Source: Thioploca ingrica
GTDB taxonomy: Bacteria > Pseudomonadota > Gammaproteobacteria > Beggiatoales > Beggiatoaceae
Assembly (NCBI GenBank): GCA_000828835.1
Contig: AP014633.1
Span: 4,030,001 to 4,094,000 of the forward strand
Length of the DNA stretch: 64,000 nucleotides
Direction: 5' to 3'
Positions 30,178 through 54,910 of this stretch are shown here, in pieces (positions within the stretch are counted from its first letter, which is position 1; every line of letters begins with the position of its first letter). The position numbers and the translations under genes are program-made. The notes beneath the pieces were generated by a model. It ran no database searches and was not told the origin of the DNA. It worked only from the letters and a program-made list of their open reading frames with translations.

Positions 30178-30603
30178 TTACTTTCCACCCTCAGCCGCTT
30201 TTTGGTGATGTTCAGCCGCTTTCATATGATGTTCAGCCGCTTTCGTATGGTTATCAGCCGCTTTCTTGTGATGTTCAGCCGCTTTCTCATGGGTCATTCC
30301 GGTGGAATTAGCGGCCTTAGCATGATGTTCAGCCGCCTTAGCATGATGTTCAGCCGCCTTATTATGATGCTCAGCCGCTTTCTTGTGGTCAGCCGCTGAT
30401 TCCTCTGCTGCCTTGGCTTCCTCTTGGGCAGATTTTTCGTGTTCAGTTGCTTGTTTCTCATGTTCAGCCGCTGTTTCTTCGGCAACCATGGTATCCCCTG
30501 CTAAAGATTCGGATGTTTCACTAGCATAAACGGGCGCTAAGCCAAAGTTTAGTAAACCAGCCGCTAGTAAAACAGTCGCCAACTTTGATTGATATTGTTT
30601 CAT
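30178..30603 (-). CDS. SmbP-like periplasmic histidine-rich heptad protein
   Basis: A 141-residue exported protein (signal about 1-28, ending VYA). The mature part is built of degenerate seven-residue repeats of the form KAAEHHx, about ten copies, with 17 histidines. This closely matches the design of the small metal-binding protein SmbP of Nitrosomonas europaea, a periplasmic copper-binding helical hairpin; a GMTH break in the middle (about residue 100) could be the turn. Metal (copper) buffering is inferred. The start is ATG 30603 with an AGGAAA site upstream. Confidence 0.75.
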   Translation of the reverse strand: MKQYQSKLATVLLAAGLLNFGLAPVYASETSESLAGDTMVAEETAAEHEKQATEHEKSAQEEAKAAEESAADHKKAAEHHNKAAEHHAKAAEHHAKAANSTGMTHEKAAEHHKKAADNHTKAAEHHMKAAEHHQKAAEGGK

Positions 30604-30752
30604 CAAGTTGTTTCCTCAAATTGATTAATGTTATGTTTTAAAATAGAGCCATCCCAAAATGTTAGAACAACTCTCATCGTAATATGATGCCGATTCTTTA
30701 TAAAGACAATATTAAAGAGGGAAAAAAAATGAACTTTTTTTACATTGTCAGT

Positions 30753-32948: not shown

Positions 32949-32986
32949 GAAAAAAACGTTGGGTTACGCTTCGCTAACCCAACCTA
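32949..32986 (-). terminator. Terminator-like hairpin after the multicopper oxidase gene
   Basis: Read on the minus strand, GTTGGGTTAGCGAAGCGTAAC begins a hairpin closed by CCCAAC and is followed at once by a run of seven T. It starts about 10 bp beyond the stop at 32996. It is also a member of the palindrome repeats, so the family may supply terminators. Confidence 0.65.
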
Positions 32987-32995
32987 CATTTTGGC

Positions 32996-35900
32996 TTATG
33001 GTTTGACACTATTAGATGTACCTGAGGGTACAGAATCGACGGACGGGTGAGGATAACCAATAGACGGGGCAGTATACGCCTGAGTGTAACCGACCACGTT
33101 ATTTGCTATCACTCTATAGTAATACGTTGTTTTCTTCACAACGGTTGTATCCGTATAGGTCACCCCTCCTCCTATTGTTGAACCCGTTGTTGACGACAGG
33201 GTTACTACCGTGGTCCACGGACCGGTAGCACTGGTTGCTCTCTGCACAGTCCAATTGGTTTCGTTTACGGAATTGTCTGTCCAGGTCAAGATCACGGCGG
33301 CCTGACCCTTGGGCACGGTGGCCGACAGATTAGAGGGTGCCTTGGGCGCAACACCAACACTGATTGGGCGCATCATGATATTTTCTTCATGGCCCAGGAG
33401 ATGACAATGCCAAACGTACTCCCAACCAAAGTTAACCAGTTGATTAGTGACCGGTGCCGGTTCATTATCTGGACCAACATTGTGGAATCCCATCGTCGAA
33501 CCCAGGGGCATCGTCACATCCAAAGGATGGATGCTGTTGGGAAGATCAAAGGGAACGTTGGGGATAATCGGTCTCATCGCTACAATGATATCTTCCAGTG
33601 GATTCATCCGTACCGTTTCTTTCCAACCTAATTCGTTAGGATCTGGGGGTTTGATCATGCCATCCCATCCCACCCGGTTAATAATTTGTACATTAAACAT
33701 GTGCCAGTGGATGGCGTGAGTGTCAACCCCGTTGTGGGTAATCTTCCAAAGTTGGGTTCCATCGGCTAAGGAGCCAATAGGAGTTGTAGCATCTGAATTC
33801 TTGAAAATCTCAGTAGCCGGGTCAATATCGAAAAAAGGAATCGTGGTTTGTACCTGAGGACCGGTGAGGGGTATTTCAACGCCCAACATGGCATTCATTC
33901 GTCCATAGATGGGGTCAAAGTCTTCCACGATGGCCTTTGGTTCCAAGCTCATGGTGAGACTGAGGGCTGTCGCTGCTGCTCCTGAACCACCTCCTCCAGA
34001 GAAGTTGACTGTCGGTGCAGAAGTATAGTTGTTTCCTCCATTATTGAGCGTGAGGGTAGCAATGGAAGTCGGTGTAACCGTTGCTGTGGCAGCAGCTCCA
34101 GAACCGCCTCCGCTAGAGAAACCCACGGTAGGAACAGCGGTATAACCACTTCCTCCATTCGTTAGGGTGAGACTAGCAACAGCACCGGCCAATGTTACTG
34201 TGGCACTAGCCCCTGAACCGCCCCCTCCAGAAAAAACTACCGTGGGTGCAGCGGTATAGTTAGAGCCTTTATTTGTGACAGTGATAGCAGTTACTTTGCC
34301 ACTTTTAATCGTGGCATTGGCTGTAGCGCCAGTGCCTCCTCCGCCAGAGAAACTGATGGTAGGCGCAGAATTATAGCTTTTACCTCCATTGGTGACATTC
34401 ACGTTAGCAACTGATTTCCCAGTGGCTAGGGTTGCCGTAGCAGTGGCTCCGGTTCCTCCTCCTCCTGAGATCGTTACGGTAGGCGCAGAGGTATAACCAC
34501 TTCCGCCATTCGTTAGGGTGAGATTAGCAATGGACGTTGCCGTTAAGGTTGCTGCTACAGTCGCTCCTGTACCGCCACCACCCGTAATATTGACAGTGGG
34601 AATGGTGGTGTAACCAGAACCGCCTTTAGTCAGCGTGAGGCCCGTCAATGGGCCATTGAAGAAGGACAGAGTATTGGAGAAAATCCTCGCATAGACATCG
34701 ACCGGATAGTTCGCATTGAAGGCAGTATTGTAAGCAGCCTGTGGTACGATAGGTTTGTCTTGGAACTGAGCGTAAGCGGTTGGTAAGGCCGTTTGCAACG
34801 CGGCTAAGTTGAATGATGGTGCAGAGCCTAAAGCAGCCGATACTTGAATTTGCATAATCGTTCGGGTGTTGGGTCCATAGCCAGGAAGTGTTGAGGGAGC
34901 TCCGCCGGTGTCGGTTTGGTCTGGATCGCCGGTGTAATAGTCATAGCGTGTATCAAACGCTGGGACGGGTGCTGGGGCGTCGTTGTAAAGAATCAGTTTG
35001 GAACCATCTGGAACTCCAGAAAAGTCAATAATAATGTCTGCCCGTTCCGCCGGTCCCAAGAGAAGGGTGGTATTAGTAATGTTCAAAACCGTCACACTTC
35101 TGCGATCGTAATCATAGCCGGCGGGTGTATTAGGAAGCACCACGGGGGCAGGCAAGAAGCCACCTTCAGTGCCAATCTCAATAAATGAGGGACCGCTCGC
35201 CAATGGATCAGGTACACCGCCCTCTCTGCCATCAGTAGGCCAAGATGGAGGCAACCCAGCATTGGGAATGGCAGGAACCATATTGACTTCACCCGCATTG
35301 GGGTTGAGTAGCGCACCAGTCGTTGAATCCCACATGGGGTCATTGGAGTTGGCGAAGTAAAGCTGTAAATTGAGAAACCGGTCGTTGTTGGCATTGAGGA
35401 TACGGAATCGATAAGCTTTTTGACCCACTTGTAGGTAAGGATAGGCTGTACCATTCACTAGAGGAGTATCCATGAAAGCTTCTGGTGCGATAGAAGGATT
35501 AGGAGTCCCCGGTATATAGAGAGGTTCCCAAGGTGCATTATTAGGGTCGTAGTAGGGATTAGCAACGGGTCCATTAACTAAGCCTATAAAGGGGGGCCAG
35601 AACCAGGGACCATAGTCCCATCTACCCATCGCATTGGCTCCAGTTATATCATAGGGGTTTTGGTTAGGCATATAAACATGAGGTAACCACAGTTGGCCAA
35701 GTCCCCCTTTGTTCCAAGTGGGATCTTCGGCAGCCAGTTGGTTGGGGCCAGGGACAAAAGTTTTGTCCTGAATAATCAACGGAATTTGTTCAGCGGGGAT
35801 AATTCCAGAATTGACTAGACCTTGTTCTGCAGAATCAGTCAACAGGTAACCCGCAGCTTCACCCGCATAGACGTTGAGGCGAGTAATTCCATAGGAATGG

Positions 35901-37069
35901 TCATGATAGAACATGAGCCTAGCACTTTGTTGGTTAGTGTAGTAGAAGGTCAATGCCCCTGGCCCAGGATCTGGCATATCTGGAACATTATATACGCTTA
36001 CCCCTTTAGGGTAGGAAGTCGTTTCTCCGGCGGGCGTAATCCACTGATGTTGCGTTCCATCGCTAATCCACGGGGTGTTGCCGCCATGAAGATGAAGGGT
36101 AGCACGATTTTGTGAATAATTCATCGGCGAGGCACTCATCCCTAGCGGTCCCATCCCGGCTCCCATAATACTGGTATCCACCGGCAGAAAAAGATTACCT
36201 CCAGTCCCCGTGGGAAGGTTATTAGTGAACTTGACGCGTACTGGACGATCCTTATTTGCAAGAATTATCGGTCCCAAATAGCTAAACTGGCTTACCGAAG
36301 AATTGGTCGTGTTGGTTTGTCTGTAGCCTCGCAGTTTGGTGGGAGGTAAATCTGAATGCAACTGCTCGGTGTATTCCCCTAATTCGATTTCGTAATAATC
36401 CGATCCAGGGTAGGTCGTGGTATCGGGAAGAGCGATAGGAAGGTATTGCCCAAGATTGTTTGCACTGGCAACGCCCAAACCTGGCAATGAATCAACGAAT
36501 TTCCGAATCCCACCATAACCATTTCCACCATTGGTCACGGTAACTTGATTAACAGCACCATTGACATCAATGGTTGCGGTTGCACCGGCCCCGGAACCAT
36601 CCATACTGGTCATGACAACTTCTGGAGCAGCGGTGTAACCACTACCTCCGCTTATAAGCGTAATGGCAGTGATCACTCCTCCTTGAACGGTGGCTATCGC
36701 ACTAGCCCCGGTTCCACCTCCGCCGGTAAAAGTAACTACCGGTGGCAATGGACTGTTGGCATAGTTTGGGGTAAAACCGAAATAATCAGGAATTCCACCA
36801 GGCATGGGCATTTGGGCAATGGCTGCTGTAAGGTCCGCTGCTCCGGCCACTGACCCGTTGGTTGGTACTACCGACTGACGAAGTGCTGCACGATGAGTTG
36901 CTGCAGCTTTCCGCTGAGCTTGGGTCATTTGATGATGACCATGGGATACATGAGTTGAGTTGGTGTTATTCCCATTGGGTGGAACGGCATACACTGGATA
37001 AATTTTCCAGGCAAGCGCGGTGATTAATAAAGTCGAAGTTATTAAGCGATTTATTTTACGCTTAAACAT
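32996..37069 (-). CDS. Giant secreted multicopper oxidase with inserted Gly-rich repeats
   Basis: An exported 1357-residue oxidase with a signal at about 1-28. Copper-binding motifs are complete: LHLHGG (about 325), FYHDHSYG (about 385), HAIHWHMF (about 1118) and HCHLLGHEENIMM (about 1222, with the type-1 Cys and Met). It resembles the bilirubin oxidase/CotA group, usually about 500-600 residues. The excess comes from six roughly 40-residue GGSGYTSAPTV...GGGGTGA repeats between the second and third cupredoxin domains (about 808-1040), two more near the N-terminus (about 108-193) and a C-terminal fibronectin type III domain (about 1245-1340). AAGGAGGG ribosome site before the ATG. The substrate (metal, phenolic, bilirubin-type) is not predictable. 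Confidence 0.9.
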   Translation of the reverse strand: MFKRKINRLITSTLLITALAWKIYPVYAVPPNGNNTNSTHVSHGHHQMTQAQRKAAATHRAALRQSVVPTNGSVAGAADLTAAIAQMPMPGGIPDYFGFTPNYANSPLPPVVTFTGGGGTGASAIATVQGGVITAITLISGGSGYTAAPEVVMTSMDGSGAGATATIDVNGAVNQVTVTNGGNGYGGIRKFVDSLPGLGVASANNLGQYLPIALPDTTTYPGSDYYEIELGEYTEQLHSDLPPTKLRGYRQTNTTNSSVSQFSYLGPIILANKDRPVRVKFTNNLPTGTGGNLFLPVDTSIMGAGMGPLGMSASPMNYSQNRATLHLHGGNTPWISDGTQHQWITPAGETTSYPKGVSVYNVPDMPDPGPGALTFYYTNQQSARLMFYHDHSYGITRLNVYAGEAAGYLLTDSAEQGLVNSGIIPAEQIPLIIQDKTFVPGPNQLAAEDPTWNKGGLGQLWLPHVYMPNQNPYDITGANAMGRWDYGPWFWPPFIGLVNGPVANPYYDPNNAPWEPLYIPGTPNPSIAPEAFMDTPLVNGTAYPYLQVGQKAYRFRILNANNDRFLNLQLYFANSNDPMWDSTTGALLNPNAGEVNMVPAIPNAGLPPSWPTDGREGGVPDPLASGPSFIEIGTEGGFLPAPVVLPNTPAGYDYDRRSVTVLNITNTTLLLGPAERADIIIDFSGVPDGSKLILYNDAPAPVPAFDTRYDYYTGDPDQTDTGGAPSTLPGYGPNTRTIMQIQVSAALGSAPSFNLAALQTALPTAYAQFQDKPIVPQAAYNTAFNANYPVDVYARIFSNTLSFFNGPLTGLTLTKGGSGYTTIPTVNITGGGGTGATVAATLTATSIANLTLTNGGSGYTSAPTVTISGGGGTGATATATLATGKSVANVNVTNGGKSYNSAPTISFSGGGGTGATANATIKSGKVTAITVTNKGSNYTAAPTVVFSGGGGSGASATVTLAGAVASLTLTNGGSGYTAVPTVGFSSGGGSGAAATATVTPTSIATLTLNNGGNNYTSAPTVNFSGGGGSGAAATALSLTMSLEPKAIVEDFDPIYGRMNAMLGVEIPLTGPQVQTTIPFFDIDPATEIFKNSDATTPIGSLADGTQLWKITHNGVDTHAIHWHMFNVQIINRVGWDGMIKPPDPNELGWKETVRMNPLEDIIVAMRPIIPNVPFDLPNSIHPLDVTMPLGSTMGFHNVGPDNEPAPVTNQLVNFGWEYVWHCHLLGHEENIMMRPISVGVAPKAPSNLSATVPKGQAAVILTWTDNSVNETNWTVQRATSATGPWTTVVTLSSTTGSTIGGGVTYTDTTVVKKTTYYYRVIANNVVGYTQAYTAPSIGYPHPSVDSVPSGTSNSVKP
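33955..34645 (-). repeat. In-frame tandem repeats inside the multicopper oxidase
   Basis: Six diverged copies of a unit of about 114-120 bp encode LTLTNGGSGYTSAPTV followed by a GGGGTGATA stretch. Two similar copies lie at about 36490-36750. The units are not identical, so this is an old expansion rather than a recent slippage event. Confidence 0.8.
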
Positions 37070-49094: not shown

Positions 49095-49871
49095 ATGTTA
49101 TTTTTGAAACAAAAAAAACGTCCGTCAACCGTCAACCGTCAACCGTCAACCGTCAACCGTCAACCGTCAACCGTCAACCGTCAACCGTCAACCAAAAATA
49201 GCGTCAATACCTTGACGCCGCTGTCAAGTGTTATTGCCAGAATTATCCTCGTCATTAACGATGTCCCCCTTCATTTTACTTTAGTAGTCAATACTTTCAG
49301 TGAGTTTGGTTTGGAGGTCATCGTTGCACACGGCAGTCAAGAAAAACTGGCCAAAGCACCACCCGTGTTATCGAATATTACCCGACTAGATGTCAATCAG
49401 CTTATTCATGAACAGCAGGAGGTATTAATACAAATAATCACACCTCCCGAAATAGATCAACTGTTTCGACAAATTGCAGAACATTTAGCGGTTTATGAGC
49501 CAACCTCCTCAAACTCTCAAACCATTGATGACGATTTAGTGATTGCCCATCTAACGTTCGTCTATCAAGCCCGAGATTTATTATTAGCGCATTGGCAAGA
49601 ACCCCCTTCTTTAAAACAATTAGCCCACCAGGTTGGGACGAATCCCAATAAGCTCTCAAAAGCCTTCCAACAACACTTCGGCATGACGGTGTTTGATTAT
49701 TTACGTGAACATCGCTTAGCCAAGGCGCAAGATCTGTTATGCCACAGTACCCTCCCGATCCAACAGATAGCTGACACCGTGGGTTATCAGAATCACAGCG
49801 ATTTTACCGCGACCTTCAAACAGCGTTTTGGCTTAACCCCGCGCCAGTATCGTCAGCATTTTGGCTCATAA
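49095..49871 (+). CDS. AraC-family regulator with a 7-bp repeat tract at its 5' end
   Basis: A 258-residue predicted transcription regulator. The C-terminal AraC DNA-binding domain (about 160-258) is complete: PPSLKQLAHQVGTNPNKLSKAF, VFDYLREHRLAKAQDLL, IQQIADTVGYQNHSDFTATF and FGLTPRQYR. The middle (about 50-150) resembles the regulator group that reads its own N-terminal sensor. Residues 9-33 are encoded by ten copies of CGTCAAC and read PSTVNRQ repeatedly. ATG 49095 has a GGGGAGGG ribosome site, so translation probably begins before the repeats. Change of repeat number would shift frame. Confidence 0.8.
   Translation: MLFLKQKKRPSTVNRQPSTVNRQPSTVNRQPSTKNSVNTLTPLSSVIARIILVINDVPLHFTLVVNTFSEFGLEVIVAHGSQEKLAKAPPVLSNITRLDVNQLIHEQQEVLIQIITPPEIDQLFRQIAEHLAVYEPTSSNSQTIDDDLVIAHLTFVYQARDLLLAHWQEPPSLKQLAHQVGTNPNKLSKAFQQHFGMTVFDYLREHRLAKAQDLLCHSTLPIQQIADTVGYQNHSDFTATFKQRFGLTPRQYRQHFGS
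49123..49192 (+). repeat. Ten tandem copies of the heptamer CGTCAAC
   Basis: Exact 7-bp units begin at 49123 and run without a mismatch to 49192. They lie inside the AraC-type coding frame, 28 bp after its ATG. The unit length is not divisible by three, and the tract contains no stop in any forward frame. Confidence 0.95.
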
Positions 49872-52093: not shown

Positions 52094-54910
52094 GTGATGA
52101 CCAACCAATCCTTAACAACAAGATCATTTTTTGATCGTTTTTTATTGCTTTTGTGTTTGATCCTTTTCTTCAATTTATTTTGGTTGCCCAGTGTATTAGC
52201 GGCAACTGATTGCACCCGTACAAATTCTCAAAATTCTCGAGCTGAATGTCAAGCGCTGGTTAATTTTTACAACAGTACTGATGGTGAACATTGGTCGGAT
52301 AGTCCTAGTAATAACTGGAATGTGACGAATACACCTTGTACTTGGGCGGGAATAACGTGTAATAATGGACGCGTTATTAAGATTGATAGAAAAGACAAAA
52401 ATCTGAAAGGTTCTATTCCCGATTTAAGTACTTTGACTGAGTTGCAATATCTTGATCTCAGTAAGAACCACTTAAACGGTTCTATTGAAATACCTAATAG
52501 TCTGACCCAATTAAGAAATCTCCAACTCGATCACAATCAACTCACTGGTGCTATTCCTGATTTAAGTCATTTAGAATTTTTAGAAGTTCTCTATCTAGGC
52601 GACAACTTACTAGAAGAGGGTACCATTCCTGAATGGATAAAGAATTTGACTCGATTGAGAACACTCGGTTTAAGCAATAGCCAACGAATTGGTACTATTC
52701 CAGAATGGATAAATAGTTTAGCTACCTTAAAATATCTTCAACTTGATCACAACCAACTAACGGGTTCTATTCCCAATTTAAGTTATTTAATTCAGTTAAA
52801 ATGGCTTTTTTTGAATAATAACCGTCTAACGGGTTCTATTCCTGATTTAAGTAAATCGACTACTTTAGAAATTCTCTCTCTAGAAAGTAATAACCTCTCT
52901 GGTTCGATTCCAACTTCATTAAGCAACCTAACTAATCTAACTCACTTAAATTTAGGCTATAATCGGTTAATCGCTCAAGATGAAACACTGTTAAATTTTT
53001 TGAATGGAAAAAATCCGACTTGGAAACAAACTCAAACGGTACCGCCTACCGACATCAAAACCAAAACCCTATCAAAAAACAGTGTTGAAGTCAGTTGGAC
53101 ACCGATTTTGTATACCGGTGATGGTGGTTATTATCAAGTCAAATATGCCACTATTCCCAATGGCTCCTACACCCCAACAACCAGTACAACGGCTGATAAA
53201 AATGCAACTAACTATATAGTCAATGAGTTATTACCGGACACCACTTATTATTTTGTGATAGAAACCTACACCCCGCCACATCAGTTAAATCAAAACGAAT
53301 TAGTAAGTGAGTTGAGTCCCCCAATATCCGCAAACACAACCGTTACTCCACTGCCAACACCACTATCATCAAACCCATTAAATCCAGACGAATCAACGAA
53401 TAAATCAAGTCCCCCAGTGTCAGCAACCACAACACTTACTCCACCGCCAATACCACTATCATCAAACCCATTAAATCCAGACGAATCAACGAGTAAATCG
53501 AGTTCCCCAGTGCCAGCAACCACAACCGTTACTCTACCACCAACACCACTATCATCAAACCCATTAAATCCAGACGAATCAACGAATAAATCAAGTTCCC
53601 CAATGCCAGCAACCACAGCCGTTACCCCAACGCTAGTACCACTATCACCAACTATGAATCTAACTATTGCTTTTGGAGGAGATGGTCACGGTCAGGTAAC
53701 GACTAATCCCAGTGGCTTAGATTGTGACAGTCATGAGCAAAAATGTTCTTATTCTTACGAGACAGCGAGTTGGGTTGAGCTGATCGCTACACCGGCGGCT
53801 TATTCTGAGTTTACCGGTTGGGTTGGTTACCAAAGTGATTGTGATGACGGTAAGTTATTTATGAGTGATTATCGCTATTGTATGGCGTATTTTGAGCGAT
53901 TACGTTTTCCCTTGACAGTAACTATAGTCGGTCAAGGTAAAGTCAACAGTATGCCTACCGGAATTGAATGTGGTACTCAATGCCGATATCGGTTTGAACT
54001 CAATACCCAAGTCACCCTAATGACAACACCAGATACCCATTGGCAATTCAAACAATGGCAAGGCGATTGTGATGCCAAGGGTTTAGTGATAATGAATAAA
54101 GAAAAACAGTGCGAGGCTATTTTTGTAACCGTCAGTTCTGACACTAGCGGAGTACCTCTAACACCACACAGCGACACGAATTTCTCCATTGATCCAGCTA
54201 TTTACTCCAATATTCCTAATGAGGGAGTGCCACCACTGGTAGTGAATCCTGGGTTTTATAATTTTGATAACCTCACGGTAGGAAATCTTTCCCCAGCCCA
54301 AGTGATTACGGTGACTAATGCGGGTAATACGGATTTGCAGTTGGGGCAACTCACCGTATCGAGTAACGAATTTATCTTAGCCGAAGCTTGTTCTAATCAA
54401 ATACTGAGTGCGGGTAATCATTGCGCCGCTACGGTCAGCTTTCAACCACAATTAGCGGGAGTGAAGACGGCTTATCTGGCTATTCCTATTGATAATCCCA
54501 AGCAAACTACGGTAACGGTCGTCACCTTAACCGGTAAGGGTGATATCATGACAGACCCAACCCGCCTGACCGGAAACACCAGCTATCTCGTTGGAGATGA
54601 CACCATTAGTTCACCGCTGTTAGTTACCTTTATGTCACCATTGGCGGCGGCGGTAACACCCGCCGGAGTTGAACTCAATTGGGAAATCGCCGCAACCAAT
54701 CGCAATCAAATCGCCGAAATTCATCTCTGGAAAGCCCAAGCGGTGAAGGGCAATTGTCCTGAAGATATTCATCAATATGACCCGAAGACCGCCGTAGAAC
54801 TAGCCAATCAACCTCATCTGGATTATCAAGGAACGAATACGACTTGTTATGGATTACAAGTGATTGAGTATAATGGTGACGTCACTTGGTATATTACTCA
54901 AGCTAGGTAA
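52094..54910 (+). CDS. Secreted multidomain leucine-rich-repeat protein
   Basis: A 938-residue exported protein. Signal about 1-35 (ending VLA); an N-terminal cap like that of plant-type LRR proteins (CQALVNFYNSTDGEHW, CTWAGITCNNG); about nine LRRs of the GSIPDLS..L.YLDLS.N kind (about 90-300); a fibronectin type III domain (about 315-405); a Pro/Ser/Thr linker with three 31-residue repeats (PLSSNPLNPDEST); two bacterial InlB-like repeats (about 525-680); and an ASPM/SPD-2/Hydin-type Ig domain (about 725-820). The ATG is close to an upstream GAGAAAC. It is probably a cell-surface binding protein. Confidence 0.88.
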   Translation: MMTNQSLTTRSFFDRFLLLLCLILFFNLFWLPSVLAATDCTRTNSQNSRAECQALVNFYNSTDGEHWSDSPSNNWNVTNTPCTWAGITCNNGRVIKIDRKDKNLKGSIPDLSTLTELQYLDLSKNHLNGSIEIPNSLTQLRNLQLDHNQLTGAIPDLSHLEFLEVLYLGDNLLEEGTIPEWIKNLTRLRTLGLSNSQRIGTIPEWINSLATLKYLQLDHNQLTGSIPNLSYLIQLKWLFLNNNRLTGSIPDLSKSTTLEILSLESNNLSGSIPTSLSNLTNLTHLNLGYNRLIAQDETLLNFLNGKNPTWKQTQTVPPTDIKTKTLSKNSVEVSWTPILYTGDGGYYQVKYATIPNGSYTPTTSTTADKNATNYIVNELLPDTTYYFVIETYTPPHQLNQNELVSELSPPISANTTVTPLPTPLSSNPLNPDESTNKSSPPVSATTTLTPPPIPLSSNPLNPDESTSKSSSPVPATTTVTLPPTPLSSNPLNPDESTNKSSSPMPATTAVTPTLVPLSPTMNLTIAFGGDGHGQVTTNPSGLDCDSHEQKCSYSYETASWVELIATPAAYSEFTGWVGYQSDCDDGKLFMSDYRYCMAYFERLRFPLTVTIVGQGKVNSMPTGIECGTQCRYRFELNTQVTLMTTPDTHWQFKQWQGDCDAKGLVIMNKEKQCEAIFVTVSSDTSGVPLTPHSDTNFSIDPAIYSNIPNEGVPPLVVNPGFYNFDNLTVGNLSPAQVITVTNAGNTDLQLGQLTVSSNEFILAEACSNQILSAGNHCAATVSFQPQLAGVKTAYLAIPIDNPKQTTVTVVTLTGKGDIMTDPTRLTGNTSYLVGDDTISSPLLVTFMSPLAAAVTPAGVELNWEIAATNRNQIAEIHLWKAQAVKGNCPEDIHQYDPKTAVELANQPHLDYQGTNTTCYGLQVIEYNGDVTWYITQAR
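53335..53645 (+). repeat. 93-bp in-frame tandem repeat in the LRR gene
   Basis: The phrase CACTATCATCAAACCCATTA recurs at 53361, 53454 and 53547, exactly 93 bp apart, and a partial fourth begins at 53640. Units are near identical and encode a 31-residue Pro/Ser/Thr linker, so the copy number probably changes without shifting frame. Confidence 0.9.

Follow-up and report, generated by a model that had tools for sequence, protein, structure and literature searches.

How can a secreted oxidase carry a row of repeats within its catalytic fold without losing that fold, and what would the repeats be for? This question is raised by a gene of Thioploca ingrica (Gammaproteobacteria, Beggiatoaceae) that lies in a stretch of 64,000 nucleotides of contig AP014633.1 (assembly GCA_000828835.1, positions 4,030,001 to 4,094,000), hereafter the window; the genome consists of a single contig of 4.81 Mb. 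The open reading frame (ORF), 1357 residues long, is found on the minus strand at 32996-37069 and has a signal-peptide-like start; judged by its sequence, the product is a secreted three-domain multicopper oxidase of the MofA/OmpB-like family, and the enzyme as such is a new member of an already known family. What appears new, as far as searched, is the even-number rule that the repeats follow, together with an array that has no clear match among solved structures. On balance, we lean towards a CotA-like secreted oxidase whose repeats pair up and nest into a stalk that would hold the enzyme against a surface or at some distance from it. The interest of the repeats lies in the recurrence of the even-number rule in two separate sets of proteins, oxidases and phage proteins, and in their entry at five loops of one enzyme family. 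The parts of the gene, in window coordinates, are as follows.

32996..37069, minus strand: ORF, 1357 residues, secreted MofA/OmpB-like multicopper oxidase with repeat array (ORF list, homology searches)
36986..37069, minus strand: likely signal peptide, about residues 1-28 (direct sequence reading)
36509..36745, minus strand: N-terminal two-repeat insertion, residues 109-187 (missing from the repeat-less relative L083)
35735..36505, minus strand: cupredoxin domain 1, about residues 189-445 (phmmer, model superposition)
36080..36094, minus strand: copper motif HLHGG, starting at residue 326, with H326 and H328 (motif, family alignment)
35897..35905, minus strand: copper motif HDH, residues 389-391, with H389 and H391 (motif, family alignment)
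34670..35734, minus strand: cupredoxin domain 2 and family-specific loops, about residues 446-800 (phmmer, model superposition)
33953..34654, minus strand: site s4, hairpin loop holding the six-repeat array, residues 806-1039 (repeat units, relatives, model)
33350..33952, minus strand: cupredoxin domain 3, residues 1040-1240 (phmmer, model superposition)
33701..33718, minus strand: copper motif HAIHWH, starting at residue 1118, with H1118, H1121 and H1123 (motif, family alignment)
33374..33409, minus strand: copper motif HCHLLGHEENIM, residues 1221-1232, with H1221, C1222, H1223, H1227 and the axial M1232 (motif, family alignment)
33050..33349, minus strand: C-terminal Fn3-like domain, about residues 1241-1340 (weak 3mpc_A match, PHROG matches)
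32958..32983, minus strand: terminator-like hairpin with a T run, directly after the stop codon (consensus match only)

The six units of about 39 residues start at residues 808, 847, 887, 926, 964 and 1003, with a spacing of 38-40. A preliminary description of the gene, made from the sequence alone, had placed six repeats between the second and third cupredoxin domains, and this position holds; the placement does not correspond, however, to a loose inter-domain linker. The array stands in place of a short hairpin turn just ahead of domain 3, which in array-less relatives connects a DTSLTF-like strand with a PKAI-like strand. The two N-terminal copies anticipated earlier are also present, in a permuted arrangement in which a complete unit stands between a leading C-half and a trailing N-half. 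In L083, a homologue from a genome of the same family, clean empty sites are found both at the array and at the N-terminal insertion.

The units of the array share a DNA identity of only 0.41-0.70 with one another, which rules out both a recent expansion and an assembly collapse. Misassembly can be dismissed altogether because, besides this divergence, Tandem Repeats Finder reports no array within the gene, the genome is in one contig, and a six-unit array occupies the equivalent position in independent genomes, so that the same insertion, when sought in other oxidases, was indeed found. Chance is likewise an inadequate explanation because PHROG profiles match the array down to 3.7e-62. Hence, an assembly artefact or a chance low-complexity region, which is also contradicted by the empty sites and by the even counts described below, has a vanishingly small probability and was rejected.

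The preliminary description had recognized a multicopper oxidase with all four copper motifs intact, which agrees with the ORF, the motifs and the family alignment: the ligands are complete, comprising ten histidines, the cysteine and the axial ligand, and the histidines and the cysteine are invariant among 43 aligned members. Two acidic residues, D337 and E1228, are invariant in the same alignment and match D116 and E498 of CotA, as placed by its alignment with the query. The CotA laccase is matched by phmmer in stretches that cover domains 1, 2 and 3. PF07731 scores 20.3 bits against a Pfam gathering cut-off of 20.4, and the NCBIfam models stay far under their cut-offs. In the predicted structure of residues 95-1240, the mean predicted local distance difference test score (pLDDT) is 76.5 and the predicted template modelling score (pTM) is 0.74; most of the array is covered by blocks with a pLDDT of about 80-92. 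The CotA chain 7y8b_A superposes on this model across the array with Z 27.4 and 2.7 A over 460 of its 490 residues, and CotA chains are aligned over model residues 93-1146. Since these chains align across the insertion, domains 1 to 3 keep their mutual arrangement in the model; at this level the catalytic core is left undisturbed by the array, and all three copper domains are in place. CotA (1gsk, 7y8b) resembles the Thioploca enzyme in the modelled fold, in the copper ligands and in the axial methionine, but is 513 residues long and has neither the array nor the Fn3-like domain. The latter, also proposed earlier, is supported weakly, by a 3mpc_A match (E 0.001, residues 1241-1323) and by PHROG profile matches at 1235-1334, but not by Pfam, where a scan of the protein gave no Fn3 match up to E 1.

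To what extent are such repeats peculiar to this enzyme? The best 80 of 462 relatives were taken as loci, and the family set comprises 78 rows, the query and L083 included. L047, L064, L066 and L076 were left out because none of their ORFs passed the motif rule as a complete oxidase, and so were L002 and all rows from L084 on, which are weak or Fn3-only matches; L009, L022 and L026 are incomplete, and L022 stops in domain 3, so that its count of six may be short. A common core with many invariant columns is shared by 43 rows, among them L045, a Leptothrix protein considered below. The set contains 61 arrays, located at five insertion points: N-terminally in 25 rows, at s1 in one (L059), at s2 in four (L053, L057, L062, L065), at s3 in three (L008, L014, L028) and at s4 in 28. 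On the core tree, presence requires at minimum 7 changes at s4, 3 at s2, 2 at s3 and 12 at the N-terminal position. By these searches, the repeats are frequent in the MofA/OmpB-like family, spread over bacteria and archaea, and the view that they are foreign to oxidases finds no support; one of the carriers is the homologue from the mofABC-like operon of Leptothrix.

The number of repeats in these arrays is, with one exception, even. When the N-halves and C-halves of the repeats were scored with one profile, 50 of the 61 arrays had even and equal half counts by machine; of the remaining 11, ten were even by eye and one was odd, which brings the total to 60 of 61. The arrays read by eye have six repeats (L037, L046, L048, L054, L056, L082), four (L052, L053 at s4, L062 at s2) or two (L073, N-terminal), and the sizes seen in the family are 2, 4, 6, 8, 10, 14 and 38. 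The largest belongs to L015, a Dehalococcoidia metagenome-assembled genome, in which about 38 repeats (35-36 under a stricter cut) precede the oxidase core. With the by-eye readings included, the repeat number changed on the tree at least 12 times at s4 and at least 17 times N-terminally. The counting is not biased towards even numbers, because in silico removal of one repeat yielded the correct odd number in 45 of 47 arrays, the other two becoming unclean. Nor is there any sign of an A-B dimer duplication from which evenness could follow through mutation alone: adjacent repeats are the most alike (similarity 0.548 at lag 1, 0.510 at lag 2 and 0.509 at lag 3), and dimer duplication, with no rise at lag 2, was rejected as the origin of the rule.

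The second set comes from phages. A tblastn search gave no match, probably through the low-complexity filter, and relative searches of viral contigs, with either the array alignment or the whole protein as the query, found none; therefore, a DNA pattern requiring one well-conserved unit was used, which should not favour even numbers, and it picked 80 contigs among the matches listed, to which all phage counts refer. Of the 114 arrays in these contigs, 14 run into an open end and 45 are unclean; the other 55 are clean, 50 of them even and 5 odd, and exactly two repeats are present in 43 of the 50 even ones. The phage ORFs form 23 clusters, and counting each cluster and number once leaves 17 even and 2 odd cases, while the larger half-number in the 100 closed arrays is even in 86 and odd in 14. 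Virion proteins of PHROGs 701, 19630 and 708 (virion structural, baseplate wedge) possess the same repeat of about 39 residues, but without an oxidase and usually as an array of two. Such repeats had been considered typical of sheath or matrix proteins; the clearest other home found is, instead, in these virion proteins. The idea of an enzyme tethered in the sheath also lacks support, because an array profile matched no second gene in the Thioploca genome.

Why should the number be even? Modelled alone, the array reaches a pLDDT of 89.5 and a pTM of 0.67. Comparison of this model with solved structures gave no clear match (best Foldseek E 0.67; best VIA Z 3.1 over 73 residues), although absence from either collection does not prove a new fold, and a sequence profile of the array did no better against solved structures (best E 0.76). 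In Pfam, the sole match of the query array is DUF4232, whose score of 16.4 bits falls below the cut-off of 27; over 20 arrays, DUF4232 appears in 4 (best E 0.0059) and DUF7259 in 2 (best E 0.003). The ranges of the weak VIA alignments are nevertheless of use: 18 of 26 combine the two ends of the array in a single small aligned region, three run from 54/55 to 210/211, one covers 97-174, and four are different. Because these ranges fit the pairs 1+6, 2+5 and 3+4, we infer three nested two-repeat units. One repeat would then be half a structural unit, two repeats would close into one beta unit, and three such units would be stacked, forming a stalk that exits and re-enters one and the same hairpin loop, where domain 3 begins. 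If the stalk leaves and returns to one loop, the copper interface between domains 1 and 3 is preserved, and only even repeat numbers are possible. Such a stalk might keep the enzyme at, or away from, the envelope, an extracellular polymer or a mineral, conceivably by surface anchoring or mineral binding, and the Fn3-like domain may assist in this placement. The preliminary description was right to envisage, as a possibility, an extracellular oxidase with the repeats as a separate stalk.

Several observations weigh against the nested stalk and the even-number rule. The N-terminal array of L057, with nine repeats, is the sole odd one among the 61. Because reading by eye could favour evenness, a stricter automatic tally was also made, and here 68 family arrays split into 47 clean even, 4 clean odd and 17 unclean ones; the four odd cases are L057 and three single hits (one in L023, two in L048), which we take for under-detected or split arrays. 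Among the phage arrays, 5 of the 55 clean ones are odd and 45 of all 114 are unclean. The placement of added repeats between relatives gave ambiguous maps. When ascending and descending halves, or nested partners, were sought by their sequence, no consistent signature emerged. The prediction of the array alone was built on 20 sequences, with one of the five models having a mean pLDDT of 36; the nesting is read from the first and last aligned residues of matches with Z of at most 3.1, and 4 of the 26 VIA rows fit no single pair. As a separate observation, the L057 array (ORF residues 254-353) contains two nearly identical adjacent repeats, which may be a recent duplication or an assembly error.

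The obvious alternative is that the two-repeat units are strung like beads, 1+2, 3+4 and 5+6, with whole units gained or lost and the array serving as a flexible linker or spacer. The prevalence of two-repeat arrays in phages indicates that a contiguous pair can stand alone, and the family series of 2, 4, 6, 8, 10, 14 and 38 is what gain and loss of whole units would give. Still, we consider beads improbable: the superposition of the CotA domains across the array in the model calls for array ends that are close together, which beads alone would not provide, the alignment ranges link the first repeat with the last, and the lag-2 similarity expected from dimer duplication is not seen. The nested stalk could be carried one step further, to a widespread plug-in module, with no established match in the scans of NCBIfam and Pfam, in which repeats fold only in pairs and each pair takes a further pair into its far loop; this proposal, under which the fold would be new, we hold with slightly more reserve than trust. 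If it is true, stalks of 2, 4, 6 and up to 38 repeats enter the hairpin loops of unrelated proteins (one oxidase family at five places and phage virion proteins) with the host fold unbroken, and the even-number rule is a law of structure that shows in the sequence. The pairing of repeats predicts that even arrays fold and odd arrays do not; the array might serve in protein engineering as a natural loop-insertion stalk, and it is relevant to the question of how MofA and other putative metal oxidases are kept at surfaces. Literature searches for the motif GGSGYTSAPTV and for DUF7259 found nothing; on even numbers of repeats, the titles and opening lines of abstracts held nothing on this repeat, and a search for MofA with repeat and insertion returned, in the excerpts obtained, only another enzyme.

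The relationship to MofA also bears on the substrate. In L045 (Leptothrix discophora CCM 2812) and L044 (Sphaerotilus), a mofB-like FKBP gene and an ORF encoding a CxxCH motif lie downstream of the oxidase gene, as in the mofABC operon described in excerpts of PMC8218464 and PMC5566968; L037 is from Rubrivivax A210, a strain of the former, and the spread of mofA is treated in PMC13386937. The arrays of both the L045 and the L044 protein align with the query array as six repeats, and that of L045 sits in the equivalent hairpin loop; hence, the array is a feature common to the MofA branch and not an oddity of the window. The Leptothrix protein, a secreted three-domain multicopper oxidase like the query (40% identity in the best segment), differs in its axial phenylalanine, in its enlarged fifth repeat, in its distant position on the core tree, and in the mofB-like and mofC-like genes that follow it and that were not found near the query gene: mofB had no match within the window, and mofC none in the genome, in a search run without a positive control. 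OmpB of Geobacter sulfurreducens is described in excerpts as homologous to MofA, as having an Fn3 domain and as likewise lacking mofB; the comparison was made by published description only.

The preliminary description had suggested oxidation of Mn, Fe, Cu or phenolics. At the axial position of the type 1 (T1) copper site, methionine is found in 62 of 75 readable family members and phenylalanine in 13 (L037, L044, L045, L046, L048, L053, L054, L056, L060, L072, L077, L079 and L082), including all eight betaproteobacterial MofA-type proteins; this split offers a natural handle on the redox potential. An axial methionine, as in laccases, suggests a moderate T1 potential, so that Cu(I), Fe(II) or phenolics are more likely substrates than Mn(II). 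With M1232 in place of the phenylalanine of the MofA clade, oxidation of Mn(II) by the query enzyme is doubtful, so that the Mn part of the suggestion is weakened, although the residue does not decide the matter. An Mn(II) oxidase of the MofA type, depositing Mn oxides extracellularly with an array that holds or nucleates the mineral, could be argued from the homology to the Leptothrix operon oxidase with its six repeats at the same place, and from an excerpt reporting Mn-oxidase activity for a CotA (PMC3618234), CotA having an axial methionine by alignment. Against this stand the axial ligand, the failure to find mofB and mofC within the scope given above, and the role of MofA itself, termed putative in the excerpts seen, and we regard this assignment as unlikely. 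Even less probable, in our estimate, is an OmpB-like protein that would not use O2 and would aid electron transfer to insoluble metal oxides, with the array and the Fn3-like domain binding the mineral. It is favoured by relatives in Anaeromyxobacter, Geothrix and Methanoperedens, all of them lineages with a known capacity for metal or extracellular electron transfer, but no conserved cytochrome neighbours were seen, in loci of which the GC-rich ones are poorly served by the ORF caller. Excerpts of PMC5244752 and PMC8280799 concern multicopper oxidases of methanotrophic and iron archaea and have no bearing on the MofA/OmpB-like family.

As to the origin of the gene, the core tree groups the query with Neobacillus (support 89, not starred), within a starred group of ten that includes Methanoperedens-type archaea. 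Because the core is 80% identical to a Neobacillus protein, L006, and a clade of the query with L083, its same-family relative, is rejected (p-value of the approximately unbiased test 1.3e-6, the pair having been named after the tree was seen), gene and array probably arrived together by horizontal transfer. A long match was present in only 2 of 57 genomes searched around the window, the own one and G015; a match at 1e-60 was found in one of 200 Pseudomonadota genomes, the own one, and the repeat profile matched 3 of 299, the own included. One match of the repeat profile, L218 (G115:C115:75422-75946), lies within an open frame of 19427 codons in a Pseudomonadota genome. The GC content at third codon positions is 0.445, a mild excess over the mean of 0.361 (standard deviation 0.054) of 35 window ORFs. 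A plasmid search returned 62 records, all below 60% identity, and those listed cover 32-43% of the query. The gene neighbourhood is kept only among close relatives or inside mof-like operons, as far as the ORF caller, poor in GC-rich loci, allows. Positional kinship of single repeats is clear with the Neobacillus, Methanoperedens, Anaeromyxobacter and L013 rows, and not clear with L005, L010, L022, L062 and the MofA clade.

Finally, three other repeat-bearing elements of the window deserve mention. At a distance of 2.4 kb from the oxidase, on the minus strand at 30178-30606, a secreted-looking protein of 142 residues, rich in histidine pairs, contains AAEHHKKAAEHHAKAAEHH-type repeats and is possibly a metal binder. 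At 49122-49193, the heptamer CCGTCAA forms a perfect tandem array of 10.3 copies; direct repeats of a different heptamer, TAACTGA, are reported from marine Beggiatoaceae in an excerpt of PMC4679880. A 93-base tandem repeat, with 3.6 copies and 88% matches, is found at 53315-53651.

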